Part shown: positions 1,072 to 57,234 of the stretch, piece after piece | Layout of the letters: the number at the start of each line of letters is the position of its first letter | Numbering within the stretch: the stretch's first letter is position 1 | DNA from: Skermanella pratensis | GTDB lineage: Bacteria; Pseudomonadota; Alphaproteobacteria; Azospirillales; Azospirillaceae | NCBI RefSeq assembly: GCF_008843145.1 | Contig: NZ_CP030265.1 | Location: forward strand, 4,395,001 to 4,459,000 | Length of the DNA: 64,000 nucleotides | Direction of reading: 5' to 3' | Position numbers and translations under genes: made by a program | Notes under the pieces: model-generated | The model's database searches: none | The model's input: only the letters and a program-made list of their open reading frames with translations | What the model was told of the DNA's origin: nothing

Positions 1072-3735
<2,664 letters not shown>

Positions 3736-3822
3736 GAATACGCTCCTTGTCTACCGGTCGCCCGCGAGGCAGCACGACCGAATTCCGACCCACTGATGTG
3801 CGATCCAGGAGGATGCTGAACC

Positions 3823-3853
3823 CTATATGGCGAGGGGTTATTCGGCGCACAAG
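3823..3853 (-). promoter_or_regulatory. Putative RpoH (sigma-32) promoter of clpB
   Basis: On the minus strand CTTGTG (3853-3848) and CCATATAGG (3831-3823) are about 17 bases apart. This resembles the alphaproteobacterial heat-shock promoter pattern (CTTG...C-C-ATNT). The start of transcription would fall about 80 bases before the clpB ATG. This is motif reading only. Confidence 0.45.
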
Positions 3854-3945
3854 CAGGCGGGAGTGGGCATTTCGCGATCCGATGCCTATGTTGCCGGAAC
3901 GTCACCCAACATTGCATCACCCCGTTTACCCAGGAGATCAGCCGC

Positions 3946-4425
3946 GTGAAGAAGCTGTTGGCCAAGTCGGGTCTGCTCCGCACCGCCCATCTGGCGCGCG
4001 TGGGCTGGCTGACCATGGCGAGGCCGCTGACCATGGGTGTACGCGCCATCATCAGGGACGCGGACGGCGCGGTCCTGATGATCCGCCACAGCTATGTCGA
4101 TGGCTGGCACCTTCCCGGCGGAGGCGTCGACCGGAACGAGACCGTCCAGCAGGCGATGGCCCGGGAGGTGCGGGAGGAGGTCGGCGTCGAGGTGGTCGGC
4201 ACAGCGCCTATGCTGGGCCTCTATGCCCGGTTCCGCCACCGATCCAGCGACCATGTCAGCGTCTTCGTGGTCGACGAGTGGCGGGGAAACCCGGAAGTCG
4301 ACGGGCTGGAGATCGTGGAATGCCGCTTCTTCGCATTGGATGCCCTGCCCGACGACACGACGCCGGCGACGCGCCGGCGGCTCGCGGAACTGACCGGAAA
4401 CGCCGCGCCGTCCGATCTCTGGTGA
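3946..4425 (+). CDS. Nudix hydrolase
   Basis: Nudix-fold pyrophosphohydrolase of 159 residues. The 23-residue Nudix box is complete at about residues 59-81 (GG-x5-E-x7-REVREEVG), which supplies the Mg2+-binding glutamates. Substrate cannot be told from the sequence; the family acts on nucleoside diphosphates linked to another group. The first 25 residues are a basic, partly hydrophobic stretch before the beta-sheet core. The GTG start is preceded by CAGGAG with good spacing. It has no close partner downstream: a hairpin and a 258-base gap follow. Confidence 0.85.
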   Translation: MKKLLAKSGLLRTAHLARVGWLTMARPLTMGVRAIIRDADGAVLMIRHSYVDGWHLPGGGVDRNETVQQAMAREVREEVGVEVVGTAPMLGLYARFRHRSSDHVSVFVVDEWRGNPEVDGLEIVECRFFALDALPDDTTPATRRRLAELTGNAAPSDLW

Positions 4426-15621: not shown

Positions 15622-15717
15622 GGCAGGGCCTTCATCGGGCTCACCCTCTCACGGTCGGCGGCACAGGTTGGCAGCTCGGGTCGGCGGGACCAGGTCGGGG
15701 CCAAGGCCGGGCGCGGA

Positions 15718-16953
15718 TCAGGCGGCGTCCAGCCCATAGGCGGTGTGGAGAGCGCGGAGCGCCAACTCGGTGTACTCCTCCGCGATCAGCACGCTGACCT
15801 TGATCTCCGACGTCGAGATGACCTGGATGTTGATCCCCTTCTCCGCCAGCGACTTGAACATCCGCTGGGCGACGCCGGCATGGCTGCGCATGCCGACGCC
15901 GATCACCGACACCTTGACGACGTTGCTGTCGGCCAGCAGGCGGCGGTACTGAAGCTCGCCCTTGGCGGCTTCCAGCACGTTGCGCGCCCGCTCCAGGTCG
16001 GCCTTCGACACCGTGAAGGTGATGTCGGTGCTGGCACCGTCCTCCGACACGTTCTGCACGATCATGTCGACGTTGACCGACGAGTCGGCCAGCGGGCCGA
16101 ACAGGCCGGCGGCGACGCCGGGCCGGTCGGCCACGCCGATCAGGGTGATCTTCGCTTCGTCACGGCTGTAGGCGATGCCGCTGACCAGTTCCTGTTCCAC
16201 GATTTCGTCCTCGTCCACAACCAGAGTACCGGGCAGCTCGCTGCCGGCTGCCTTTTCGAAGCTGGAAAGCACCTGCACCCGCACGCCGTGCTTCATGGCC
16301 ATCTCGACCGAGCGGGTCTGGAGCACCTTGGCGCCCAGGGACGCCATCTCCAGCATTTCCTCGTAGGTGATCTTGGACAGCTTGCGCGCCTTGGACACGA
16401 TGCGGGGATCGGTCGTGTAGACGCCGTCCACGTCGGTGTAGATGTCGCAGCGGTCGGCCTTCAGGGCGGCGGCCAGCGCCACCGCCGAGGTGTCGGAGCC
16501 GCCGCGGCCAAGCGTCGCGATCCGGCCGTTCGGCGACATGCCCTGGAAGCCCGCGACCACGGCGACCTCGCCGGAGGACAGCCGGCGCTCCAGCTCTTCC
16601 GTCTCGATCGAGCAGATGCGCGCCTTGGCATGCACGTCGTCGGTCCGGATCGGGATCTGCCAGCCCTGCCAAGAGCGCGCGGCGATGCCCAGTTCCTGGA
16701 GCGCCAGGGCGGTCAGCCCGCTGGTCACCTGCTCGCCCGAGGCGACGACGGCGTCGTATTCCCGCGCGTCGTGCAGCGGGCTGATGCCGGCGCAGTATTC
16801 CACCAGCTTGTTGGTGACGCCCGACATGGCCGAAACGACGACCGCGACCTGATGGCCGGCGTCGACTTCCGCCTTAACCTTGCGCGCCACATTCTTGATG
16901 CGGTCGATGTCGCCGACCGATGTGCCGCCGAATTTCAAAACGATCCGCGCCAT
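15718..16953 (-). CDS. lysC: Aspartate kinase
   Basis: Phosphorylates aspartate, the first step to lysine, methionine, threonine and diaminopimelate. The 411 residues are typical of the single-function enzyme. They contain an amino acid kinase domain starting MARIVLKFGGTSVG, with GFQGMSPNGRIATLGRGGSD for substrate and nucleotide binding, and two C-terminal ACT domains (about 265-405) for feedback control by lysine or threonine. The ATG at 16953 is chosen over an upstream extension because the family starts at this residue. lysC is divergent from ubiG and upstream of the nitronate monooxygenase and ptsP. Confidence 0.96.
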   Translation of the reverse strand: MARIVLKFGGTSVGDIDRIKNVARKVKAEVDAGHQVAVVVSAMSGVTNKLVEYCAGISPLHDAREYDAVVASGEQVTSGLTALALQELGIAARSWQGWQIPIRTDDVHAKARICSIETEELERRLSSGEVAVVAGFQGMSPNGRIATLGRGGSDTSAVALAAALKADRCDIYTDVDGVYTTDPRIVSKARKLSKITYEEMLEMASLGAKVLQTRSVEMAMKHGVRVQVLSSFEKAAGSELPGTLVVDEDEIVEQELVSGIAYSRDEAKITLIGVADRPGVAAGLFGPLADSSVNVDMIVQNVSEDGASTDITFTVSKADLERARNVLEAAKGELQYRRLLADSNVVKVSVIGVGMRSHAGVAQRMFKSLAEKGINIQVISTSEIKVSVLIAEEYTELALRALHTAYGLDAA

Positions 16954-42735: not shown

Positions 42736-44097
42736 ATGCTCGATCACGGCAAGCACGCGCGCCCGAAGGCAGGCGCGGTCCAATCCATCGACGGCCTGTC
42801 CAACACCACCAGACGCACGTTCCTGCGAACGGTCGCGGTCCAGGCAGTGGCCCTGCCGGCCGCTTCCGTCCTGGCCGGCCGCAGCGGCCCGCTCGCCGCG
42901 GCCACCTTGAGTCCCGGCACCGCCTTGTCCGTGCCACGCCCCGGGGACGCCGGTATCCGCCCGATCATCCGGGAATTCGCCGATCCGTGGCTGGAACTCG
43001 TCCGGCTCCTGCGCGAAGCCGCCGAAGTCGAGCATGCCCTGATGGTCCAGTACCTGTACGCCGCCTTCTCGCTCAAGCCGGCCTATGCCGCCATCGCCGG
43101 ATACGGCGCCCCCAATGCCGACGACCTGCTCGGCGTCGCCGTGCAGGAGATGCAGCACCTGGGCGCGGTCAACCGGTTCCTGGTCGCGATCGGGTCCTGC
43201 CCCCACCTGGAGCGGCAGGATTTCCCCTATGAACCGGCCATTTATCCCTTCGCCTTCCATCTGGAGCCGCTCAGCCGGCACAGCCTGGCGAAGTATGTCT
43301 ATACCGAGGCGCCCCCCGATGCCCTCGACAGGACCAAGGCCAGCCCGGAGGATGCCCGGTTCATCGACGAGGTGTTCGCGGCGCTCGGCGGCAAGAGGCG
43401 TCCCAACCATATCGGCAGCCTGTACGAGCAGATCATCGCTTTGGTCGGAGAACTGAAGCAGTCCGCCTCCGCCCCGAAGCATGTCGATTTCGACCGCTGG
43501 ACCGCCGACTTCGAAGCGATCAAGGACGAGGGGGAGATCGACCACTACCTTTTCTTCCGCAAGCTCTTCACGGGCCGGCACGAGGGACTGGCGGCGGTCG
43601 CGGGCGGGACCGCGAACGTCTGGGACCTGCCCGGCAACGATCCGCGCTACCCGGCCTTCGACGTCGCGGTCGATCCGACGGCGTTCATCGGGCATCCCGG
43701 TCAGATCATGGACGAGACGGCGCTGCGCATCGCCTGGCTGGGCAATCTCGAGTACTGGACGGTCCTGTGCCTGCTGGACAACCATTATCGCGACGGCGGC
43801 GACTGGGCGGTCGAGCGGGCCCGGGCGCACATGGTGGACGCCATGCTGCCGATCGCCCGGAACCTGGGTTCCAGGGGAGCCGCCCTGCCCTTCGACGCGC
43901 TGAGCATGGGCTATGCGCCCGGCACCGACGGCGCCATGTCGCGGCTCGCGATCCTGCGGCTGGTCCGGGAGGCGCAGGCCGTCGCGCGCTCCCTCGGGCC
44001 GGAGTTGCCGGGCGATTTCCCGCGGGACGTCCACGCGGACACCATCGCCGCGATCGAGGGCGACGTCGTCCTCGCCGGCTTCGGCACGCGGCGTTGA
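42736..44097 (+). CDS. Tat-exported ferritin-like domain protein (VioB-type ferritin-like fold)
   Basis: Protein of 453 residues with a twin-arginine signal (NTTRRTFLRT, Arg26-Arg27) and an Ala-rich hydrophobic stretch. The mature part has ferritin-like metal motifs: AAEVEHALMVQYLYAAFS (Glu97/Glu99/His100) and QEMQHLGAVN (Glu138, His141), similar to the iminophenylpyruvate-dimer-synthase-type ferritin-like domain of VioB and RebD. It probably binds a di-iron centre in the periplasm. The substrate is unknown. The ATG follows ATAGGAG. A patatin gene follows after 53 bases. Confidence 0.8.
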   Translation: MLDHGKHARPKAGAVQSIDGLSNTTRRTFLRTVAVQAVALPAASVLAGRSGPLAAATLSPGTALSVPRPGDAGIRPIIREFADPWLELVRLLREAAEVEHALMVQYLYAAFSLKPAYAAIAGYGAPNADDLLGVAVQEMQHLGAVNRFLVAIGSCPHLERQDFPYEPAIYPFAFHLEPLSRHSLAKYVYTEAPPDALDRTKASPEDARFIDEVFAALGGKRRPNHIGSLYEQIIALVGELKQSASAPKHVDFDRWTADFEAIKDEGEIDHYLFFRKLFTGRHEGLAAVAGGTANVWDLPGNDPRYPAFDVAVDPTAFIGHPGQIMDETALRIAWLGNLEYWTVLCLLDNHYRDGGDWAVERARAHMVDAMLPIARNLGSRGAALPFDALSMGYAPGTDGAMSRLAILRLVREAQAVARSLGPELPGDFPRDVHADTIAAIEGDVVLAGFGTRR

Positions 44098-46155: not shown

Positions 46156-49100
46156 TCATGTCCAGGACAGAACCGCACGGGCGTTCTTCAGGTCGCGGGT
46201 ATCCAGCCCTTCCCCGAACCACGAATAGATCGGCTCCAGAAGCTCCCGCGCCTCCCGGCGCCGCCCCCTGCGCTGCCACAGGCGGGCGAGGCTGGTGGCG
46301 GCCCGGAGTTCGCGCATCCGGGCGTTCTGCCCGCGCGCAATGTCCAGTCCCCGGCGCAGGGCCGCTTCGGCCGCCGCTCCCTGGTCGACCGCGATCAGCA
46401 GTTCGCCCCGGCGCCACTGCAGTTCCGCCTGCGACCCGAGTTCCCACCGCTCCGCCCGCTCGATCGCCTCGTCGATGAGCACCAGCCCTTCTGACGCCCG
46501 CCCCGCCTTGCTCAAGGCTTCGGCGAACAGGGCGAGATGGAAGGGAATGCCGAGTTCGCCGCGGGTCGCCCGGTATGCGGCCATGCCCTCCTGCATGATC
46601 GGCATGCCTTCGGCGGTCCGCCCCAGATGAACCAGCGCCCATCCCCGGAGGATCCTCCCCGCGGCCAGCGCCGAGGCGAAGCCGCAGTCGGACGCCAGCC
46701 CGATCAGCTCCCCGGTCAGGTCGGCCACCTGTTCCGGAGCGCCCGCATAGGCGGAGAAGTCGCTGGCCTGTTCGAGCGCGAAAGCCAGGGTGGCCGGGTG
46801 CGACAGGAGCCTGGCCCGGGTGAGGGCCTCCTTCTGCCGTTCGACGGCCTTGTCGGGATAGCCCCGGCTGAACAGGTTCCAGGACAGGAAGCCGAGGCAT
46901 TTGATGCGGTGGTTGTACGGCTGCACCAGGGGCAGGTTCCGGCTCTGCGGCAGGTCGTGGAGCGCTATCGCCTGTTCCAGATGACCGCCCGCGGCCTCGA
47001 GCTGCCCAAGATAGAAGGAGATGACGCCGACGGCGGTGTGCCCCGTCAGCCGGGCCGACGTTTCCCGCTGCTGCTCGGCCTCGGCCAGCAGTTCCTTGGC
47101 GATGGCGAGCGCATGCCTCAACTCGGCGCGGCCGAGATGAAACTCCGTCTGGCCGTAGAGCGCCGTGAGGAGCTGGGTCCTTTCACCGATCTGCTCGCAC
47201 AGCTGGCGGGCCCGGACATAGGCGCCGCCCACCTCCGGCGCGGCCAGCCCCTTCGTGGCGGCGAGGGCCGCCCCCAGCGTGATCTGAAGCGGGATCTCGA
47301 GCCGATCCCGCCCGATCCCCTCGGGCAGCCTGGCGAGAAGGCGCAGCCCTTCGTTCACCTGCTCGACGGCCTCGAGGCTGCCGGACTGGGCCAACGCCCT
47401 TTGTCCGGCGATAAGCCGGTGTTGGGCGGCTTCCAGGAACTGGCCGGCCTCCTCGTAATGACGGGCGACCAGTTCGGGCCTGTTCCGGACGGTATCCGGA
47501 AAGCGCCCGACGAGGGTTCGGACGATGCGGCCGTGCAGCTGCCGCCGCTTGCCGCGCAACAGCGCCTGGTAGGCGGTCTCCTGGATCAGCGCGTGCTTGA
47601 AGCTGTATGTCGCCTTGGGCGGAGTCCCGTGGGACAGCAGGAGCCCTCCTCCGGTGAGCTGGTCCAGGGCATCGCTCAGGGCGCGGTCGTCCAGGTCGGA
47701 CACCGCGGCCAGCAGGTCGTGGGAGAACTCCCGTCCGATCACGGCACCGATCTGCGCCACCTCCTTGCCCGGCGCCAGCCGGTCGAGGCGGGCCATCAGC
47801 AGATCGTGCAGGGTGGCGGGAATCGTCGTGGCCGGCAGGTCGGACGGCCCGCCCCAGCCATTTTCGGGGACGCTGGATTCCAGCACCGCCCTCGTCAGTT
47901 CCTCGATGAAGAGGGGAACGCCGTCGGCCCGGCCGATGATCCGGCCGATCACGCGATCGGGGAGCGCCCCGCGCTGCGCGACGCTGGTCACCAGCATCGC
48001 GGACTGCTCCGGCGTGAACCGCTTCAGCACGATGCTGGTGCAGTGGGACCGGTCGTCCGCCGTCCAGGGCGGGTTGAAGTCCAGCCGGAACGTGACGATC
48101 AACATCAGCCGCAGCGATCGGGCGCGATTCATGATCAGCGTCAGCAACTCCAGAGTGCTCGGGTCTGCGGCGTGCGCATCCTCGACCTGCAGCAACATGG
48201 GCCGGCGGGAAGCCAGTCCGCCGAAGTGGGCCGCCAGGGCGTCGAGCATCAGTTCCCTGCGTTGGCCGGAGTCCTGGATGACCGGCCGGCCGCGGTCGTC
48301 GAACGGGATCGACAGCAGGGATGCGATCGGCTGTAGCACCTCGTCGACGAGGCAGCCCGACCGGGCGAGCATGGCCCTCAGCTTGTCGATCCTGCGCTCC
48401 GGCCGGTCGTCCGCCGCGAGCCCCGCCTCCCGCTCAAGAGCCTCGATCACGGGAAAGAACGCGGTGTGCCGGAACTGCGGGCTGCAGGAGAAGTCGAGCC
48501 GGCCGTCGGGCGGGATGCCGAGATGGCGCGAGAGTTCATGGAGCATGCGCGACTTGCCGATGCCGGGCTCTCCGCCGAGCAGCACCACCTGACCGTCGCC
48601 CGCCGCCGACCGGTGCCAGCGGTCCGCCAGCAGCGCGAACTCCTCCTCGCGGCCGATCATCGGAGTCGATCCCGTGTCGTGCAGGGCGGCGAAGCGGCTT
48701 GCCACGTTCCTTTCGCCGTCCACCCGCCAGACCCGGACGGGCTTGGCGAAGCCCCTCAACTCCTGGTCGCCCATGTCGGTGCAGTCGAACAGCCCGCCGA
48801 TCAGCCGGCGCGTCGTCTCCGCGATCACCACCGAATTCGGCTCGGCGAGCGTCTGCAGGCGGGCCGCCAGGTTGAGCGGACCGCCGATGACCATCCGCTC
48901 CTCCAGAACGGACCGGTCGGCCAGGTCGTCCACGACGACCAGGCCCGTCGCGATCCCGACGCGGACGCGCAGGCCGGGTCTCGACGGCAGCACAAGTCCG
49001 GCGACGGCCCGGACCAGGGCCAGTCCGGTCCGGACCGCCCGCTCCGCATCGTTCTCCTGAACGGCCGGATAGCCGAAATAAATCAGGATGCCGTCACCAA

Positions 49101-49371
49101 GATGCCGGGCGATCCAGCCGTCGAACCGCTCGACGACACCGGTGCTGACGTCACGATAAGCCCGGATGACGTTGCACATGTCCTCCGGATCCAACTGCTC
49201 CGACAGGGCGGTCGAGCCGACAATGTCGCAGAACAGAGCCGTCATCTGCCGGCGCTGCCCTTGCGGCCGCAACGCTTCCCCATCCCGGCTCCGGGCTCTC
49301 AGAGCCGTCCCGCAATGGCGACAATAGAAATCCCCGCATTGGTCTTGATGGCCGCAGGCAGGGCATTTCAT
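46156..49371 (-). CDS. Class III adenylate/guanylate cyclase with AAA ATPase and TPR region
   Basis: Cytosolic regulator of 1071 residues. The N-terminus has a zinc ribbon (Cys3, Cys6, Cys17, Cys20). The cyclase domain (about 38-215) keeps both metal-binding aspartates (Asp49 in CDIVGST, Asp93 in GDGILIYFG) and the transition-state pair Asn167/Arg171 in NLAARL, so it should be active. A STAND-like AAA ATPase follows with Walker A GGEPGIGKS (267-275) and Walker B LLQVEDAHAADPS. The C-terminal half (about 590-1065) is helical TPR-like. ATG 49371 was chosen because the zinc ribbon begins there. The target of the signal is unknown. Confidence 0.88.
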   Translation of the reverse strand: MKCPACGHQDQCGDFYCRHCGTALRARSRDGEALRPQGQRRQMTALFCDIVGSTALSEQLDPEDMCNVIRAYRDVSTGVVERFDGWIARHLGDGILIYFGYPAVQENDAERAVRTGLALVRAVAGLVLPSRPGLRVRVGIATGLVVVDDLADRSVLEERMVIGGPLNLAARLQTLAEPNSVVIAETTRRLIGGLFDCTDMGDQELRGFAKPVRVWRVDGERNVASRFAALHDTGSTPMIGREEEFALLADRWHRSAAGDGQVVLLGGEPGIGKSRMLHELSRHLGIPPDGRLDFSCSPQFRHTAFFPVIEALEREAGLAADDRPERRIDKLRAMLARSGCLVDEVLQPIASLLSIPFDDRGRPVIQDSGQRRELMLDALAAHFGGLASRRPMLLQVEDAHAADPSTLELLTLIMNRARSLRLMLIVTFRLDFNPPWTADDRSHCTSIVLKRFTPEQSAMLVTSVAQRGALPDRVIGRIIGRADGVPLFIEELTRAVLESSVPENGWGGPSDLPATTIPATLHDLLMARLDRLAPGKEVAQIGAVIGREFSHDLLAAVSDLDDRALSDALDQLTGGGLLLSHGTPPKATYSFKHALIQETAYQALLRGKRRQLHGRIVRTLVGRFPDTVRNRPELVARHYEEAGQFLEAAQHRLIAGQRALAQSGSLEAVEQVNEGLRLLARLPEGIGRDRLEIPLQITLGAALAATKGLAAPEVGGAYVRARQLCEQIGERTQLLTALYGQTEFHLGRAELRHALAIAKELLAEAEQQRETSARLTGHTAVGVISFYLGQLEAAGGHLEQAIALHDLPQSRNLPLVQPYNHRIKCLGFLSWNLFSRGYPDKAVERQKEALTRARLLSHPATLAFALEQASDFSAYAGAPEQVADLTGELIGLASDCGFASALAAGRILRGWALVHLGRTAEGMPIMQEGMAAYRATRGELGIPFHLALFAEALSKAGRASEGLVLIDEAIERAERWELGSQAELQWRRGELLIAVDQGAAAEAALRRGLDIARGQNARMRELRAATSLARLWQRRGRRREARELLEPIYSWFGEGLDTRDLKNARAVLSWT

Positions 49372-49784
49372 CACGAAATCTCTCTTGCTGCACCGAGTAC
49401 TCAATGGAAGCGTCGCGCCGTGGTCGCCATCAGGGTACCGCACGGCCGAACCGGCATCCTATTCCGCTTTCGGCGTGTCACCAATGAGCAGGTAGCGGTC
49501 CCGTAAATCAGCCGGATCGCCGGTCTCCTTGAATATAGGCCTCTCCACTTTGGTACATATAACCGAATTCATGGCTACTTATAACAGATATCGGAGTAGT
49601 AATTTTAACTATAAGCTCATTCTGACCAATAAAAATCCGATCAGGACTGCAGATCAGCTCAAGCGAAGCAGCAGCCGACGAGCAGACGTGCCGGCGTCGG
49701 GTGCCGCTTCGTTCTAGCCGGCCCACGAATTTTCGTATGAACGCTTGACTTGAAACTCTAACGTCTTTCCATCCCGGAGGGATC
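49372..49784. other. Intergenic region with AT-rich core
   Basis: About 410 bases upstream of both the cyclase gene (minus) and the five-gene operon (plus). The central part (about 49530-49640) is strikingly AT-rich for this genome and should hold promoters. I see no pair of -35/-10 boxes good enough to name. A CCGACG/CGTCGG stem lies near 49675-49702. The 98-codon minus frame that runs across it shows no gene features. Confidence 0.5.
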
Positions 49785-50807
49785 ATGACGTTTGCCACCA
49801 TTGTCGAACCGACCGACGACGATCATGTCCTTGACCTGTGCGCGAAACATCTGGCGCGGCTCAACAACGACCTCCGGCACTCCTACAACGGTCACTTGGC
49901 CGGAGATCCGCGCGGACGCTTCAGCGAAGGCTGGCGTTTTCCAGCCATCGAGTCCGACCGGGAGCCCGGATTCAACCAGGTCACCCTGGTCTGGCGCCGG
50001 GAAATGGACGAGGCCCGGCCCGACTCCGTCGGATTGATCGGAACGTTCAGGGCTCTTTACGACCGGATCCCCCTGCGTGAGATCCCGGACTCCCTGTACT
50101 GGTATGTAACGATCAGGGTTCCTAAGCGAACTTGTCACAGATACCTGTTCCAGGTCGGCGGCGCCTACCACCAGGATCGCGTCAACCCGCAGACCGAGAA
50201 GGACGGCGACGGGCGGACCTGGTCGCGCTTCTTCACGGAGGAAACAACCAGGCCGATCGTCCTGCAGGCCCACGAGCGCCGGATCCTGAGCCGGTTCGTG
50301 CAGCATATCCTGCCGTTCCGGACCCCGGCCGCGGAAGAGTTCCTTCGCTCCCCCGGCAACCCGCTGCCCAGGGATGTCTATGAACTGGACCAAGCCGTGG
50401 GCGTCGTCAACTTCATCGACAAGGTGCTGGCCCGGGAAGAACGGCATAACCGGATCGACTACGCGATCTGCCTGCGCGAAATCGAGAAGATCCTGCGCCT
50501 GCGGGAGCCCTATTCGGAGCCGGACAATGTAACCAAGGAAGCTTTCACCAGGCTCTACGGGGAAATGTGGGGCCAGGTGCCGGGCTGGGACCTGTCGGTC
50601 TACGACAATCCCTCGCATTTCTTGCGCATGGTTCGGCGGCATACCTTCCTCGGCGCCTTCTCCCATCCGAAGTACGGCGGCAATGCGATGGCCGTGGGCT
50701 GGCGTTTCCTGGAGGAGCGCTTCCGCGATCCCGGGGGCAACGGCGTCTTCGACTGGCGCAAGGCGATCGAAAAGCCGCTCGGGACCAACAACGAGTATGT
50801 GGGCTAG
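49785..50807 (+). CDS. E-set domain fused to gluconate 2-dehydrogenase subunit 3-like domain
   Basis: Protein of 340 residues, first gene of a five-gene operon. Residues about 50-150 look like an immunoglobulin-like E-set of the kind at the N-terminus of enterochelin esterases and glucan enzymes (QVTLVWRR, SVGLIGTF, SLYWYVTIRVPKRTCHRYLFQV, DRVNP). Residues about 160-335 match the gluconate 2-dehydrogenase subunit 3 family, with HPKYGGNAMAVGW at 294-306. Ordinary subunit 3 proteins carry a Tat signal that exports the dehydrogenase; this one has none. It probably partners the GMC oxidoreductase encoded 12 bases downstream. The ATG follows CGGAGGG. The fusion is unusual. Confidence 0.7.
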   Translation: MTFATIVEPTDDDHVLDLCAKHLARLNNDLRHSYNGHLAGDPRGRFSEGWRFPAIESDREPGFNQVTLVWRREMDEARPDSVGLIGTFRALYDRIPLREIPDSLYWYVTIRVPKRTCHRYLFQVGGAYHQDRVNPQTEKDGDGRTWSRFFTEETTRPIVLQAHERRILSRFVQHILPFRTPAAEEFLRSPGNPLPRDVYELDQAVGVVNFIDKVLAREERHNRIDYAICLREIEKILRLREPYSEPDNVTKEAFTRLYGEMWGQVPGWDLSVYDNPSHFLRMVRRHTFLGAFSHPKYGGNAMAVGWRFLEERFRDPGGNGVFDWRKAIEKPLGTNNEYVG

Positions 50808-50819
50808 GAGGGCCGGGTC

Positions 50820-52688
50820 GTGGCTGAGGAATACGATATCGTCATCATCGGCAGCGGCGCCGGCGGGGCGCCGATCGCGTCGGAACTGGCGGGTTTGGAG
50901 AACCGGGCATTGCGCATCCTGGTCCTCGAGAAAGGCCCGAAACTCAGGACGCAGGAGGACAACCCGGCCGGCGGCTTCAGCGACTTCAAGCGGGACGAAC
51001 TGCTGAACGCGGGGCCGGAGAAGCGGATCAACTGGGACGGCGCCGGCAACACGAACCGGCCTTTCTATTCCAGCCACATCGAGCCCGACCTGAACGACGA
51101 GCCGCACCTGTGGTCCGGGCATGACGAGCAGGATCCCCGCGTCACGGTCGAGGGTTACACCGCCCAGGTCGTCGGCGGCGGAACCCAGCTCTACGGCGCC
51201 GTTTCCCTTCGTTTCCCGGAACGGGACTTCATGCTGGCATCGGCCGACCGCCCCGCCGGGCTGCCTAACGATCCCTACGCCGATCCCGACGTCGATATCC
51301 GGGACTGGCCCATCGGCTACGACGACCTGCTGCCCTATTACGAGAAGGCGGAGACGCTGGTCGGCATCAACGGCACCGTCGACGATGTGCAGACCGGGGC
51401 GCCGGCCCAGGAGAAGAAGTTCCCGAAGAACTGCTACCAGACGCCGCTCTCCCCGAACCCGATCAGCCAGTTCGCCCTGGACGGGATGAAGAGCATAGGC
51501 GCCCAGGTCTATCGCACGCCCCTTGCCGTCATCACCGAAGCCCATGCCCCCAGCGGGCGGCCGACGCCGGGATGGGTCAAGACGGGCTACGTCAACCGCT
51601 ACGGCGATCCGCTGGGCTACAAGTCGAACACCTGGGTTTCGCTGCTTCGCCCCGCGATGCGGACTCATCCCGGCCGGATCGACCTGCGGGCCAACTGCAC
51701 CGTCACTCACCTGGAGGCGAGCGGCAAGCGCATCACCAAGGTGCATTACCGCGACGCCAGCGGGTTCCCGAAAAGCGTCGGGGGAAAAATCGTGGTGGTC
51801 GCCTGTTCGGCGATCGAATCCGTTCGGCTGCTGATGCTGTCGGCGGAAGAGGACCCCACCGGGCTGGGCAAGCTCCTGCGCCACGACGAGGACGGCACCC
51901 CCCTCGGCCGATACTTCCTGACCCACTGCTTCGGCGGCGCGGAGGTCAGCATCCCGGACGGCAGGCGCTTCGACAAGACGCAGTCGCTGGACAGCGACTA
52001 CGCAACGGATTGGACGAGCCGGCTCGACTTCCTGCGCAGCAACAACATGTGGGCCGGCGCCGCCATCTACAACAACACGTCGGACCAGTCCCTGCCCGTC
52101 ACCCTGGCGCGGACGGACGGTGCCAACGACCTCGATACCTGGTGGGAGGGCTTCGACAACGACCCCGACAAGACCGGCGAGGGCATGCTCGGCTGGATGG
52201 ATGCCGATTTCGGCACGCGGCTGAGCGTCAGCTTCATGGCCAACCAGGTTCCCTGGCGGAAGAACCGCATCCGGCTGAGCGACTTGCGCGACAAGTGGAA
52301 CCGCAAGAGCGCCTGGGTCGTCAAGGACTGGCATCCCCACGACGGCCACGTGATGAACACCCTGGCCCGCGTGTGCGAGGACATCCTGCTGGCGGGAATT
52401 CCCGGAACGAAGCGGGAGGGCACGGGCATCCCGTGGAACAGGGGCGTCATCGGGGAAGGCAGCGTCTATGGCCAGGGCGTCCGCATCGCGAACCACATCC
52501 TGGGCGGCGCGCGCTTCGGCACCGACCGCGCCACGTCGGTGCTGGATCCCGACTGCCGCGTCTGGGACATCGACAATCTCTACGTCACCGACGGCTGTTT
52601 CATGCCGACGTCGGGCGGCGCCAACCCGACGCTGACGATCCAGGCGAATTCGTTCCGCGTCGCGGACATTCTCAAGCAGGCGGTTTAA
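50820..52688 (+). CDS. GMC family FAD-dependent oxidoreductase
   Basis: Flavoprotein of 622 residues of the glucose-methanol-choline family, closest in pattern to the catalytic subunit of gluconate/sugar dehydrogenases. The FAD Rossmann motif is IIGSGAGGAPIASELA (9-24). The QVVGGGTQLYGAVSLRFPERDF stretch and the C-terminal catalytic region HILGGARFG...DNLYVTDGCFMPTSGGANPTLTIQAN are intact. No signal peptide or Tat motif. The GTG start follows AGGAGGG. It probably oxidises an alcohol group of a sugar, with the upstream subunit-3-like protein as partner. No cytochrome subunit is encoded, so its electron acceptor is unknown. Confidence 0.88.
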   Translation: MAEEYDIVIIGSGAGGAPIASELAGLENRALRILVLEKGPKLRTQEDNPAGGFSDFKRDELLNAGPEKRINWDGAGNTNRPFYSSHIEPDLNDEPHLWSGHDEQDPRVTVEGYTAQVVGGGTQLYGAVSLRFPERDFMLASADRPAGLPNDPYADPDVDIRDWPIGYDDLLPYYEKAETLVGINGTVDDVQTGAPAQEKKFPKNCYQTPLSPNPISQFALDGMKSIGAQVYRTPLAVITEAHAPSGRPTPGWVKTGYVNRYGDPLGYKSNTWVSLLRPAMRTHPGRIDLRANCTVTHLEASGKRITKVHYRDASGFPKSVGGKIVVVACSAIESVRLLMLSAEEDPTGLGKLLRHDEDGTPLGRYFLTHCFGGAEVSIPDGRRFDKTQSLDSDYATDWTSRLDFLRSNNMWAGAAIYNNTSDQSLPVTLARTDGANDLDTWWEGFDNDPDKTGEGMLGWMDADFGTRLSVSFMANQVPWRKNRIRLSDLRDKWNRKSAWVVKDWHPHDGHVMNTLARVCEDILLAGIPGTKREGTGIPWNRGVIGEGSVYGQGVRIANHILGGARFGTDRATSVLDPDCRVWDIDNLYVTDGCFMPTSGGANPTLTIQANSFRVADILKQAV

Positions 52689-52711
52689 CCAGGACGGAAC
52701 GAGGAACGGCC

Positions 52712-53890
52712 ATGGATTTCCGGTTCCAGGACATCTTCAACAGCGTGGACGCGAGCGTCTTCCAGGTCGTGTTCTTTCCCGACCGCATCTACCACGACCA
52801 ATACTTGAACGCGACCCGGTCCGAACGGTACCGGTACAATGTGCAGGAGGTCCGGACCAAGGCGGAGATCACCGTCCTGAAGGGCGAGGTCTACAAGGAC
52901 TCGATGCTTTACACCAACTTCCTGCGGGTCGAGTACCGGTCGGCGCGGCTGGTCGAGGCGATGCGGGTGAAGGGGCGGTTGGGCGGTGCGGCGGTGCGGG
53001 CGCGCATCCGCCTGTGGCTCGACCACGAGCAGCGCGACCTGACCCAGGCGCAGTTCCTGAACGAGAACGATCCGGTCATCCGGCTCTATTACTGTCCATG
53101 GGTCGACGCCTATCAGGTCGAACTGTGGAATACCCTCGAACCCGGCGAGGGCGACCATCACGACATCGAGGTGCTGACCCAGATGGGCCGCAACGGGGCG
53201 ATCACGAAAGTGCCCAAGCTGTCGGCGAAGACGGCGGACGTGAAGCTGATCCGCGAGGTCGACCTGGAGTTCCTGGAGGACGACGTCACCGAGACCTCCG
53301 GCTACTTCCTGCCGGACACCGAGGTGGCCAGGGACGACTTCTACTTCCGCAATCTCCAGGTCCCCAACACGGACGAGCCCAGCAGCGACAGGAACACCAT
53401 CCTGAAGGGGACCTACACGCTGAACTTCCGCCGGGGCTTCTTCATACCGGATATCAAGAAAGTGGCGCCGGTCCGCTATCGCAACGCCATGATGTCCTCC
53501 GACAACCCGTTCGCCCGGCCCGACAACATCCTGGAGATGAGGTGGCTGCTTCAGGACGAGTTCTCCTCCTCCATGGTCTTCTTCCACGAGGTGGCGGTGC
53601 CGCCCGGGGTGGTGGAAGGCACGCACCAGCATATCGGCAGCGAGGAGCTTTACTTCGTGTACGAAGGCGAAGGCATCGCCTACATGGGCGCTGCCGACCA
53701 TCCCGACCTGCCGGACGATCACCCGATCGAACAGCGGCACGTGTTCGGGCTGGATCCCAAGCCGGTACGGCCGCTCGACGTCAAGGCGGGCTCCGTGATC
53801 TTCACCAAGAGCGGCGGCGTACACGGCATCAAGAACACCCATGCGACCCAGACCTTGCGGTTCGTCGCATTTCTGTATCAGAGCGCCTGA
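52712..53890 (+). CDS. Two-domain cupin protein A
   Basis: Protein of 392 residues of unknown function. The C-terminal cupin has complete metal motifs: HQH-x3-E (His305, His307, Glu311) and motif 2 with His371 (AGSVIFTKSGGVHGIKN). The N-terminal domain contains a beta-rich stretch (about 97-141: RIRLWLD...IRLYYCPWVDAYQVELW) that recurs in the next gene's product, so the two are paralogues. No signal peptide. It could be a metal-dependent sugar isomerase, dioxygenase or epimerase; I do not recognise the family. Spacing to the GMC gene is 23 bases. Confidence 0.75.
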   Translation: MDFRFQDIFNSVDASVFQVVFFPDRIYHDQYLNATRSERYRYNVQEVRTKAEITVLKGEVYKDSMLYTNFLRVEYRSARLVEAMRVKGRLGGAAVRARIRLWLDHEQRDLTQAQFLNENDPVIRLYYCPWVDAYQVELWNTLEPGEGDHHDIEVLTQMGRNGAITKVPKLSAKTADVKLIREVDLEFLEDDVTETSGYFLPDTEVARDDFYFRNLQVPNTDEPSSDRNTILKGTYTLNFRRGFFIPDIKKVAPVRYRNAMMSSDNPFARPDNILEMRWLLQDEFSSSMVFFHEVAVPPGVVEGTHQHIGSEELYFVYEGEGIAYMGAADHPDLPDDHPIEQRHVFGLDPKPVRPLDVKAGSVIFTKSGGVHGIKNTHATQTLRFVAFLYQSA

Positions 53891-53924
53891 ATCAGAGCAC
53901 CCGACCCGGCACAGGATGACGTCC

Positions 53925-55295
53925 ATGCAGATTATCGAAGCCGAGATCCGGAACAACATCGCGGTGTCCCCGGGACGGGGTCCCGACTACCAGGACCAGA
54001 ACCCGATCCTGAGGATGATGGACACCTGGGCGAAGGCGGAGCTGGCGGCCGACCGCGAGCATTACGATGCCGGCAGCCTGGACTTCCTGTTCCCATTCAG
54101 GGATCTGGCGCTTTACGGCCCGAGGCCGCCGAACTCGGGCTTGCTCGACCCGCGGCAGCAGGACGAGAAACAGGACTTCCAGAAACAGAACGTCGCGGAT
54201 TTCAACCTGGAGGATTGCTGGCTCGCCCGGGGTTACGCCAGCGCCGATCCCTGGGATGGCAGCTTCCTCAAGCTCTCCTACTCCGCAAGCCCCTTCACGC
54301 GGCTGGCCGCGAAGGCGGCCGAGGCGGGCTCCCCGCTGAAATCCAACATCCGCGCCTGGATCAGGGTCAGCGGCAATGCCACGCCCTTTCCCGTCATGCT
54401 GCCCTACAACCCGCGCACCGACCGGTACGAGGTCGAGATCTGGGCCTATCCGGGTCGCGACCTGCAAGACCGGCTGGGCGACAAGGGCCGCGCCGCGTTT
54501 GATCTCGGGGCGATCGTCGCCGATGCCACCATCGTCCGCGGCGAGCGATCGGCCTTCCACGGACCGGCGATCAGCGGGGAGCGCGACCAGGCGAACCGGC
54601 CGATCGCGCAGACCAACGATCCGTCCCCGGTCGACATGATCCAGCGCGCGACGGACCACACCATGCATCCGGTGCTTCCGGTGACGGTGGAGGTCGCCTG
54701 GGCGAACGACTCCCTGCAGGTCTGGGACAACAACGGCGGCAACAATTATACTTACAAGTTCAACATGCTGTTTCGCGGATGGCGGAATTACCTGCAGGTC
54801 GGACAGAGCCGCCACCCGCATGGCGGCGTGGGCTTCCTCGAATACCGCAATCTGCTGTCGAACTATTTCTCCCTTGAGGACAGGCGCAGATCGGTGCTGG
54901 GCAACCGCTGGGAGCCGGAGCTGGGCCGCGAGCTGAACTCATGGAACTTCGGCGCCGACGCCTGGAACGGCCGGCAGGCAGCGGGACCCAAGCCCGCCGG
55001 CCCGGAGCTGGAGCGCTTCATGGCCGTCGACTACATGGACCTGCACCTGCTCAACGCCCGGTGCGGCATCGGCATCCACCGTCACCGCGATAACCAGGAA
55101 GTGTTCCTGCTGATGGAAGGCAGCGCGCTGATGCTGGTGGGCGACTGGTGCAAGTTTCCCGACCGGGAACGCGCTTTCGAGCTGCGCCAGATGGAGGCGG
55201 GCGACCTCGCCATCTGCAAGACCGGCCAGCTGCATGCCCTGTACAATCACACGGACGAGCAGATCAAGCTGTTCATGTTCGGGGGGTATGATTGA
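53925..55295 (+). CDS. Two-domain cupin protein B
   Basis: Protein of 456 residues, paralogous to cupin protein A. The C-terminal cupin has HRH-x4-E (His385, His387, Glu392) and motif 2 with His437 (EAGDLAICKTGQLHALYN), so metal binding is expected. The N-terminal domain shares the IRAWIR...YNPRTDRYEVEIW pattern (141-174) with its neighbour. No export signal. ATG 53925 is preferred; another in-frame ATG lies 9 bases upstream. The stop overlaps the start of the GH13 gene (ATG at 55288), indicating translational coupling. Confidence 0.75.
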   Translation: MQIIEAEIRNNIAVSPGRGPDYQDQNPILRMMDTWAKAELAADREHYDAGSLDFLFPFRDLALYGPRPPNSGLLDPRQQDEKQDFQKQNVADFNLEDCWLARGYASADPWDGSFLKLSYSASPFTRLAAKAAEAGSPLKSNIRAWIRVSGNATPFPVMLPYNPRTDRYEVEIWAYPGRDLQDRLGDKGRAAFDLGAIVADATIVRGERSAFHGPAISGERDQANRPIAQTNDPSPVDMIQRATDHTMHPVLPVTVEVAWANDSLQVWDNNGGNNYTYKFNMLFRGWRNYLQVGQSRHPHGGVGFLEYRNLLSNYFSLEDRRRSVLGNRWEPELGRELNSWNFGADAWNGRQAAGPKPAGPELERFMAVDYMDLHLLNARCGIGIHRHRDNQEVFLLMEGSALMLVGDWCKFPDRERAFELRQMEAGDLAICKTGQLHALYNHTDEQIKLFMFGGYD

Positions 55296-57234
55296 TCCGA
55301 TGCCCGCATCCCAGCAGCACATCACCCCGGCGACGCCCATGGGGGCGAACCTGGTCCAAGGCGGCGCCACGTTCCGCGTCTGGGCGCCGCGCGCGAGGAA
55401 GGTCCATGTCTGCGGCGATTTCAACGGCTGGGCCCGGGACGATTCCTCGCTCCTGGCGAAGCACGGCGACGGCCGCTGGACCGGGTTCGCGCCCGATGCG
55501 CGGGACGGCGACAAGTACAAGTTTTACGTCACCGGCGACGGCACCGAAGGCTTCAAGCGCGATCCCTATGCCCGCGAGCTGACGGTCGCCTGGCCCAACC
55601 CCGACTGCATCCTCCGCTCGGCCGGCAGCTTCCCCTGGCAGGACTGGAGCTGGCGCACGCCGGATTTCCGCGACCTGATCATCTACCAGCTCCATGTGGG
55701 GACCTGGTACGGCCCGGACCGCCCGAACCGGGTCGCGAAGTTCCTCGATGTCCTGGACCGGGTCGAATACTTGGCGGACCTGGGCATCAACGCGATCGAA
55801 CCGCTGCCCATCGTCGAATACAGCACGTCGCGCAGCATGGGATACAACGGCTCCGACCTGTTCTCGCCCGAGATGGACTATCAGGTCGGGGACGCCGAGC
55901 TTGACCGGTATCTCGGCCTGGCGAACCGGCTGCTGGCCGGGAAAGGAAAGGCGCCGCTGACCCGCGCGGTTCTCGCGGTCGGCATCAACCAACTCAAGGC
56001 ACTGGTGGATATCTGCCATCATTACGGCATCGCGGTCCTGCTCGACGTGGTCTACAACCACGCGTCCGGCGATGTCAGGTCCCAGCCGGAATCGATCTAT
56101 TTCTTCGACCGCGCCGGCGGCACGGACCCCAACGACAGCCTCTATTTCACGGAGCAGGACCATACCGGTCCGGTGTTCGCCTTCTGGAAAGGCGACGTGC
56201 GCCAGTTCCTGATCGACAACGCCCGGTTCTTCCTCGACGAGTACCATGTGGACGGCTTCCGCTACGACCAGGTGACCGTGATCGACCGGCAGAATGCCGG
56301 CTCCGGCTGGCTGTTCTGCCAGCACCTGAACGAGACGCTTACCCATCAGGATCCTTCCGCCATCAACATCGCGGAATACTGGGGACCGGAACCCGCGGTC
56401 GTCCGTCCGCAGGACCAGGGCGGCGCCGGCTTCCATGCCAACTGGCACGACGGGCTGCGCACCGCGATCCGCGGCGTCATCGAGCAGGCGGCCGGCGGAC
56501 AGGGCGCCTTCGTCGACTGGCAGCCGGTCGTGGACCATCTCCGCGCGCCCGGTTTCCGGGACGCCTGGCGCGCCGTCCAGTACGTCGAAAGCCACGACGA
56601 GGTCTACCGCGACCGCAACGCCCGGATCCCTTCGCTGGCCGTGGGCGGCGGCCGGCAGACCCGGACCTGGTACGCGACCAGCCGGTCGCGGGTGGCGACC
56701 GGCCTCGTCCTGACGGCGCCCGGCATTCCCATGCTCTTCATGGGGCAGGAATTCTACGAGGACAAACGCTGGGCCGACGATCCGCCGAACCACCGGGACG
56801 CGCTTCTCTTCTGGGACGGCCTGGGCAACGACAAGACCATGATCGACTTCCACCGGTTCACGCGCGAACTGGCATGGCTGCGGCGGAAGCACCCCGCACT
56901 GCGGGGCGAAGGGATCCGCACGGTTTCCATGGAGAACGGCTCCCGCGTGCTGGTCTTCCAGAGATGGGCCGAGGGCCTGGGCCGCGATGTGGTGGTGGTG
57001 GCGAGCCTGAACGAGGCGACCCAGTACGGCTACCGGATTCCGATGCCGGCGCCGGGGCAGTGGTTCGAGGTCTTCAACAGCGACCTCTACGAGAACTGGG
57101 TGAACCCTGCGGCGGCCGGCAACGGCGGATCGGTCCGGGCGGACGGACCGGGCCTGAACGGGCTTTCCTGGTCGGCCGCCGTCACGATCCCCGCTAATTC
57201 CATCCTGGTGTTCGCCCGCGATTTCGGGGACTGA
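55288..57234 (+). CDS. GH13 alpha-amylase family enzyme with CBM48, glucan branching-enzyme-like
   Basis: Protein of 648 residues. An N-terminal CBM48/E-set (about 20-105, FRVWAPRARKVHVCGDFNGW) precedes the GH13 barrel. All catalytic positions are present: region I DVVYNH (253-258), nucleophile Asp327 in DGFRYD, acid Glu363 in NIAEYW, and His436-Asp437 in ESHDE. A C-terminal beta-domain closes the chain. The pattern suggests a branching enzyme or trehalohydrolase-like activity on alpha-glucans rather than starch digestion outside the cell, since no signal peptide is present. It is the last gene of the operon. No glgA, glgC, treY or treS is in the window. Confidence 0.87.
   Translation: MIDPMPASQQHITPATPMGANLVQGGATFRVWAPRARKVHVCGDFNGWARDDSSLLAKHGDGRWTGFAPDARDGDKYKFYVTGDGTEGFKRDPYARELTVAWPNPDCILRSAGSFPWQDWSWRTPDFRDLIIYQLHVGTWYGPDRPNRVAKFLDVLDRVEYLADLGINAIEPLPIVEYSTSRSMGYNGSDLFSPEMDYQVGDAELDRYLGLANRLLAGKGKAPLTRAVLAVGINQLKALVDICHHYGIAVLLDVVYNHASGDVRSQPESIYFFDRAGGTDPNDSLYFTEQDHTGPVFAFWKGDVRQFLIDNARFFLDEYHVDGFRYDQVTVIDRQNAGSGWLFCQHLNETLTHQDPSAINIAEYWGPEPAVVRPQDQGGAGFHANWHDGLRTAIRGVIEQAAGGQGAFVDWQPVVDHLRAPGFRDAWRAVQYVESHDEVYRDRNARIPSLAVGGGRQTRTWYATSRSRVATGLVLTAPGIPMLFMGQEFYEDKRWADDPPNHRDALLFWDGLGNDKTMIDFHRFTRELAWLRRKHPALRGEGIRTVSMENGSRVLVFQRWAEGLGRDVVVVASLNEATQYGYRIPMPAPGQWFEVFNSDLYENWVNPAAAGNGGSVRADGPGLNGLSWSAAVTIPANSILVFARDFGD

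Follow-up and report, generated by a model that had tools for sequence, protein, structure and literature searches.

In fungi, pyranose 2-oxidase, an enzyme of the GMC family, and the cupin-fold aldos-2-ulose dehydratase act one after the other on glucose or alpha-glucan products to give cortalcerone or microthecin. Among bacterial flavoproteins, the glucose dehydrogenase of Burkholderia cepacia that depends on flavin adenine dinucleotide (FAD) oxidises the anomeric carbon of its substrate. Its published description (PubMed Central (PMC) record PMC6719666) states that the enzyme also accepts maltose, that it carries a catalytic His/Asn pair of the kind found here and that Cys212, Cys218 and Cys222 are the ligands of its 3Fe-4S cluster. 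We describe a five-gene operon, A to E, of Skermanella pratensis (Alphaproteobacteria), which occupies positions 49785 to 57234 of the window, i.e. the whole analysed stretch of 64,000 nucleotides (contig NZ_CP030265.1, positions 4,395,001 to 4,459,000). It encodes a small subunit (A), a GMC flavoprotein (B), two cupins (C and D) and an alpha-glucan-type enzyme of family GH13 (E). In our view A-B-C-D, where present together with E, probably forms a self-contained mobile cytosolic pathway for the oxidative conversion of stored alpha-glucan, that is glycogen or maltodextrin. What is conserved is the quartet A-B-C-D; the fifth member, the GH13 gene, is exchangeable and sometimes absent. The component families are known, and their combination, the fused glycogen-type domain and the lost electron relay appear to be new. 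A full-text search of the open-licence PMC literature found no published description of this gene set, in line with the original prediction, which was made from the letters of the window and knew of no described system of this composition.

All five genes are located on the + strand. The small subunit A (49785..50807, 340 amino acids (aa)) fuses a CBM48/AMPK-type glycogen-recognition-like module (approximately residues 80-140) to a Gluconate_2-dh3 domain (residues 163-308). B (50820..52688, 622 aa) is a GMC flavoprotein (PF00732/PF05199) with the catalytic pair His559/Asn602 and without a 3Fe-4S cysteine triad. C (52712..53890, 392 aa) consists of an N-terminal beta-rich domain and a C-terminal cupin (approximately residues 241-392) carrying His305, His307, Glu311/312 and His371; the corresponding residues of its paralogue D (53925..55295, 456 aa) are His385, His387, Glu392 and His437. 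E (55300..57234, 644 aa) joins a CBM48 module to a GH13 alpha-glucan-type enzyme related to GlgB and TreZ, and stays below the equivalog cut-offs of both. Pfam searches with the window's proteins detected Gluconate_2-dh3 in A, the N- and C-terminal GMC_oxred domains in B, and CBM48, alpha-amylase and C-terminal domains in E; near the C terminus of C and D Cupin_2 was found slightly below the curated cut-off. The genes are separated by 12 (A/B), 23 (B/C), 34 (C/D) and 4 bases (D/E). The first three gaps had been given correctly in the original prediction; the 8-base overlap that it proposed between D and E proved to be a start-codon artefact. No export signal is apparent in the proteins, in line with the same prediction. 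The ATG at 55288 is missing in both same-genus relatives, which read T-T-D-P-M-P at this place, and the E protein of a Microvirga plasmid is annotated from the position equivalent to 55300. We therefore place the start of E at 55300 and the D/E gap at 4 bases.

We surveyed a collection with one genome per species using two peptide patterns taken from an alignment of the core of B. The 94 pattern matches correspond to 65 loci, from records named to ten phyla, and genes at these loci were called by profile searches over all open reading frames (ORFs) of at least 60 aa. A, B, C and D are found in the same order on one strand in 60 of the 65 loci, a recurrence well beyond chance, so the clustering that had been proposed from a single genome is conserved. 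This number includes one locus with a partial C of 201 aa (L064), one with C called as two ORFs (L055) and one with B called as two ORFs (L075). Two pairs of loci are not independent: L012 and L044 agree in length and in gene coordinates, and one plasmid is represented twice, as L005 and as L017. Among the five exceptions, L018, L019 and L054 are interrupted by contig ends; in L013, an acidobacterial bin, the frame of B is short (504 aa), ends 106 bases before the contig end and has no adjoining A. Because the scan began from two B peptides, the count of 65 loci describes the company of that branch of B and not free-standing cupins, and it is not exhaustive. From the proteins found, 50 of 64 (A), 38 of 66 (B), 44 of 63 (C) and 49 of 62 (D) were used in the family alignments below, after truncated, frame-merged or near-duplicate ORF calls had been dropped.

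Searches starting from C gave a patchy picture. Of 82 genomes of the order, four contain C: that of S. pratensis itself, two from its genus and one from a different genus. At the three non-self loci all five genes stand in the same order. Strong matches of A fall in the same four of the 82 genomes, and three more contain weak partial matches (E 2e-4 to 4e-4). Within the class C was detected in the own genome only (1 of 289 genomes); the 299 genomes of the phylum contributed the own genome and one weak match of 51 positions. A tblastn search of plasmids with C returned one record, the Microvirga plasmid; the genes annotated there correspond exactly to the five, order included, and their proteins share 41-63% identity with those of the window; a single-protein scan of genome contigs with C gave no match. 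The idea of a fixed five-gene set thus holds in part: four additional loci contain the complete set in this order, and the unit kept most widely is the quartet.

The GH13 gene is the sole widely recurring neighbour of the quartet and lies in the examined stretch of 38 of the 60 quartet loci. When adding L019, 39 loci with a GH13 gene could be compared. The protein is of the window's kind in 17 of them, GlgX-like in 12 and of a third kind in 10; the latter is found mostly in cyanobacteria, its representatives being GlgB/TreZ-like and below cut-off. Three of the 39 assignments concern fragments (L029, L055, L075), and L015 is intermediate (29.3% to the third kind, 27.7% to the window's). In 31 loci the gene is located downstream on the same strand, in 7 upstream and in 1 divergently, and along the tree of B the kind switches at least 9 times. 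Since different alpha-glucan enzymes exchange beside the same quartet, the quartet and its GH13 partner appear to have a substrate class in common, and the link to alpha-glucan expressed in the original prediction is strengthened by the three kinds of partner. The same prediction had called E branching-enzyme-like; its membership of GH13 stands. As branching enzyme GlgB it reaches just 223.6 bits against a curated NCBIfam cut-off of 741, and as trehalohydrolase TreZ 179.8 bits against 538.8. The GlgX cut-off of 640.9 bits is passed by the partner in L060 (837 bits) and narrowly missed in L024 (638.7) and L077 (596). Because E is below the GlgB cut-off and the slot is GlgX-like elsewhere, opening a glucan is a likelier role of E than branching it.

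The catalytic residues of E, numbered from 55300, are Asp323, Glu359 and Asp433 in the PF00128 barrel; they are kept in all 15 relatives of its own kind with at least 500 aa, two fragments having been left out. For the GlgX kind the column of the catalytic Asp contains Asn in 12 of 12 proteins in the mixed alignment; direct inspection of the sequences showed GFRFD in all 12, but the motif [ATS][HS]D[GSN] in only 7 of them. On this basis we claim no catalytic triad for this kind. The own genome contains 15 PF00128 stretches including that of E, which makes it unlikely that E is its only GH13 enzyme for glycogen.

The other neighbours show no comparable pattern. After GH13, the commonest neighbour cluster (blastp at E <= 1e-15, covering half of the shorter protein) was seen in 6 of the 65 loci, and in a Pfam tally of 97 neighbour proteins taken from 171 candidates no family was found in more than 3; Cupin_2 and the metallo-beta-lactamase fold were each seen in 3. 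Among the examined neighbours no recurring exporter or regulator family was found. We also considered and rejected a defence system: A to D had no PADLOC match at E <= 0.01 and E matched only a GlgB-named model. The 97 neighbours matched five PADLOC models with one member each at E <= 1e-10, without the pattern of a defence island.

A belongs to the Gluconate_2-dh3 family. The window's protein matches PF13618 with E 1.5e-8, above the curated cut-off, and 49 of 50 A proteins match at E <= 0.1. The glucan-type module on the small subunit, already noted in the original prediction, was recovered as AMPK1_CBM, the glycogen recognition domain, in 42 of the 50 A proteins at E <= 0.1 (best 4.7e-9), the window's own A not being among them. 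In addition, the profile of the A family matches structures of the AMPK beta-2 glycogen-binding domain with E 0.0066, and aromatic residues are located at positions 92 and 106 in many of the 50 proteins.

Among solved structures B comes closest to the Burkholderia cepacia enzyme, though the relationship is distant, with three separate aligned stretches and 147.7 bits over 622 profile positions. His559 and Asn602 are present in all 38 aligned B proteins. Cysteines of the 3Fe-4S triad were sought in residues 240-275: this region contains no Cys in 29 of 38 proteins, a single Cys in 9 and two or more in none. Covalent attachment of FAD as at His105 of the Burkholderia enzyme is not common to most B proteins, as only 2 of 38 have His in the aligned column and the other 36 have Leu or Ile. 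B also falls short of pyranose 2-oxidase (AA3_4), for which it scores 45 bits against the NCBIfam cut-off of 544.9. The lack of an export signal on the A/B pair and of a cytochrome, both remarked on in the original prediction, was supported by simple scans of the wider sample. A twin-arginine pattern within the first 45 aa, the single pattern scanned for twin-arginine translocation (Tat) signals, occurs in 2 of 50 A proteins and in neither at a credible position. An ORF with at least two CxxCH motifs within 5 kilobases (kb), as expected for a multihaem cytochrome, was detected in 1 of 60 loci (L062), some flanks ending at contig ends. As judged from these scans, the catalytic core and the small subunit persist in this branch of B, but nothing was seen of the attributes by which its relatives are coupled to a periplasmic haem chain.

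C and D are paralogues, aligned by hhalign over 281 columns with a probability of 97.9 and E 4.4e-13. Cupin_2 is present in 44 of 44 C proteins. The putative metal site, a His-His-Glu-His arrangement (3-His-1-Glu), is invariant in C (44 of 44) and in D (49 of 49). Structure predictions were confident (predicted local distance difference test 89.6 for C, 92.1 for D) and place the metal site in the C-terminal cupin. The cupin domain of C matches TM1287 (1o4t) with Z 16.9 and a root-mean-square deviation of 1.0 over 112 aligned residues; the fold matches of D are generic, with a best Z of 12.1 and many ties. For the N-terminal beta-rich parts of C and D no credible sequence match was found in solved structures, and the fold searches took the whole proteins. 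Neither aldos-2-ulose dehydratase nor another named cupin enzyme is among the listed sequence and fold matches of C and D, an absence from a list that excludes nothing. Dioxygenase, isomerase and dehydratase activities are all compatible with this evidence.

The four proteins of the quartet have largely shared their history. Pairwise distances of A, B, C and D correlate in all six pairs (Spearman 0.62-0.74; maxima of 200 label shuffles 0.19-0.28), from which we conclude that the quartet mostly travelled together; the exact nearest neighbour of the four proteins is identical in just 26-33 of 58-62 rows. In the tree of B, built from 66 proteins, members of different phyla are intermixed in places, with at least 6 changes on starred branches for Pseudomonadota and 3 for Verrucomicrobiota, and the row nearest to the window's B is an acidobacterial bin. 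Together with the clustering of phylum labels described below, this suggests cross-phylum transfer in some lineages and shared descent in others, keeping in mind that bins may contain foreign contigs.

Some loci show peculiarities of their own. In the same-genus loci L010 (14893-17908) and L011 (14792-19595) approximately 2.8 and 4.6 kb of extra sequence lie between the end of the operon and the block matching the window from 57470 onward, which suggests that the downstream boundary of the operon is variable among same-genus genomes; by eye, the L010 insert contains a transposase- or nuclease-like ORF (15632-16771). In Nostoc indistinguendum (L055, 7229-12758) C is broken into two ORFs, and the GH13 gene upstream is fragmentary. 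Both are whole in the closely related Nostoc desertorum (L056), and the arrangement is decay or an assembly error in one lineage. A Saccharothrix bin (L032, 16106-18169) contains a second GMC-like ORF, scoring 81 bits with the B profile, approximately 2 kb beyond the downstream end of the quartet, and in three Saccharothrix loci (L034, L040, L049) a very long convergent ORF of approximately 1,750 aa directly follows D. Near B in L013 a TOTE-conflict primase and an AbiEii-type toxin gene were noticed (1628-4050).

Taking these data together, the favoured pathway for stored alpha-glucan can be sketched as follows. E, or the GlgX-like enzyme in other lineages, would open the branched glucan, yielding linear alpha-1,4 chains or exposed ends as expected from its family. 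A would dock the A/B heterodimer onto the glucan through its CBM48/AMPK-like module, and B would use FAD and the His/Asn pair to oxidise one hydroxyl of a glucosyl unit; the nature of this substrate and the position attacked are our suggestion. Since neither a 3Fe-4S site nor a cytochrome nor an export signal could be detected, the electrons would be taken up by O2, a soluble acceptor or a quinone instead of a periplasmic haem chain. C and D, jointly or successively, would then convert the keto sugar, or a lactone, most likely as isomerase or as beta-eliminating dehydratase/lyase. Tentatively, and with clearly less confidence, we extend this scheme to an oxidative glycogen pathway carried by a portable quartet in ten named phyla, in which the cupins eliminate or rearrange glucosyl units. 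The outcome might be a breakage of glycogen that is neither hydrolytic nor phosphorolytic, or the formation of a keto-sugar or pyranone able to diffuse. Bacteria may in this way possess an equivalent of the cortalcerone/microthecin route.

Several observations weigh against the proposed pathway. The activities of A to E are predicted from their sequences, and for C and D Foldseek/VIA returned generic cupins, which indicate no reaction. The 65 loci having all come from the B patterns, their count says nothing about C and D elsewhere. The most divergent locus, a Pseudobacteriovorax bin (L073, 8674-13770), lacks C and D: its A/B pair, possibly an older two-gene form, precedes genes for a polysaccharide deacetylase and an alpha/beta hydrolase. 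No GH13 gene lies in the examined stretch of 22 of the 60 quartet loci, of which 11 span approximately 21 kb. GH13 is thus not always alongside the quartet, and the 11 quartets would have to draw their substrate from GH13 enzymes encoded elsewhere. In AMPK a conserved pair of Trp residues stacks on the glucan; the aligned positions in A hold Leu91 in 47 of 50 proteins and, at the variable position 128, Trp in 7 of 50. Because these positions are mostly not Trp, glucan binding by A is putative only. B contains four dispersed conserved cysteines (position 293 in 36, 329 in 38, 519 in 37 and 579 in 38 of 38 proteins), which may serve another Cys-based redox role. Finally, the B tree groups phylum labels more tightly than shuffling would (17 changes against a mean of 38.1), and vertical inheritance may therefore account for a large part of the pattern.

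Among the alternatives, the one that survives best, itself doubtful, has A/B form a 3-keto (or 2-keto) glucosyl unit from which C and D beta-eliminate the glycosidic bond, thereby depolymerising glycogen without hydrolysis. The near-constant company of two metal proteins with an oxidase would fit, and GMC glycoside 3-oxidases followed by a bond-cleaving step are reported for C-glycosides (PMC10646112). However, GH13 would be partly redundant if the cupins cut the chain, and C and D are tied to the cleaving enzymes of known 3-keto-glycoside degradation by analogy only. It is unlikely that A/B acts instead as a cytosolic maltodextrin/glucose 1-dehydrogenase, with the cupins, as lactonase or isomerase, processing the lactone or aldonate so that maltobionate-type acids arise from glycogen. 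The use of maltose by the best solved relative of B, which has the same kind of His/Asn pair (PMC6719666), speaks for such a route, but B is distant from that enzyme, as its low score shows, and the opening of a lactone would not obviously need two sister metal cupins. We consider it quite improbable that the operon serves a small diffusible pyranone or keto-sugar made from glycogen, like fungal cortalcerone or microthecin, and not carbon or energy metabolism. Its patchy distribution, the plasmid copy and the mixed phyla on the tree would suit a bioactive-product cluster, as would the logic of an oxidase followed by a cupin; against this stand the score of B far below the pyranose oxidase cut-off, the absence of aldos-2-ulose dehydratase from the profile matches of C and D in solved structures and the lack of a recurring exporter or regulator family among the neighbours examined. 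Least probable of all is an unrelated substrate of the GMC protein, with GH13 beside it through a common insertion niche and not a shared pathway: GH13 genes are indeed common, as the 15 PF00128 stretches of the own genome illustrate, and 22 of 60 quartets lack one in the examined stretch, but three kinds exchange beside one quartet with at least 9 changes on the B tree, 31 of 39 lie downstream on the same strand, no other neighbour cluster exceeds 6 loci, and A carries a glycogen-recognition-type domain.

If the pathway for stored alpha-glucan is confirmed, Streptomyces, Nostoc, Nitrosomonas, Azospirillum and planctomycetes have in common a mobile, uncharacterised oxidation of their main carbon store. 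Oxidation coupled to elimination or isomerisation would join hydrolysis and phosphorolysis of glycogen, A/B would be an enzyme related to the biosensor FAD dehydrogenases but working in the cytosol with neither iron-sulfur nor haem, and a function would be opened for two conserved cupin families.

Upstream of the operon, 341 bases off and in divergent orientation, the window encodes a large regulator-like protein (46156-49443, - strand) with guanylate cyclase, AAA_16 and TPR domains. Further upstream, a ferritin-like protein (42736-44097, PF12902) weakly resembles the VioB iminophenyl-pyruvate dimer synthase model and has, by eye, a Tat-like N terminus; its gene is followed by a patatin-type phospholipase-like and a TspO-type-like ORF, both again recognised by eye.

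The A/B pair is most readily compared with the direct-electron-transfer FAD dehydrogenases, i.e. the gamma-alpha-beta complex of Burkholderia cepacia and fructose dehydrogenase. They have in common a GMC subunit, a small subunit of the Gluconate_2-dh3 type and the His/Asn pair. In contrast to these complexes, A/B has no 3Fe-4S triad, no convincing Tat signal and no cytochrome subunit that could be found, and its operon adds the fused glycogen-recognition-type domain, two cupins and often a GH13 enzyme. Like GlgX, GlgB and TreZ, E combines CBM48 with GH13 and its catalytic residues, but the window's protein remains under the GlgB and TreZ cut-offs. The cupin domain of C resembles the single-domain cupins of the TM1287 type, to which C and D add a long N-terminal beta-rich part. 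With the fungal pyranose 2-oxidase pathway the likeness consists in a GMC oxidase followed by a cupin-fold enzyme; here the system is bacterial, two separate cupin proteins are present, the small subunit carries a glycogen-type domain and B lies far under the pyranose oxidase cut-off.

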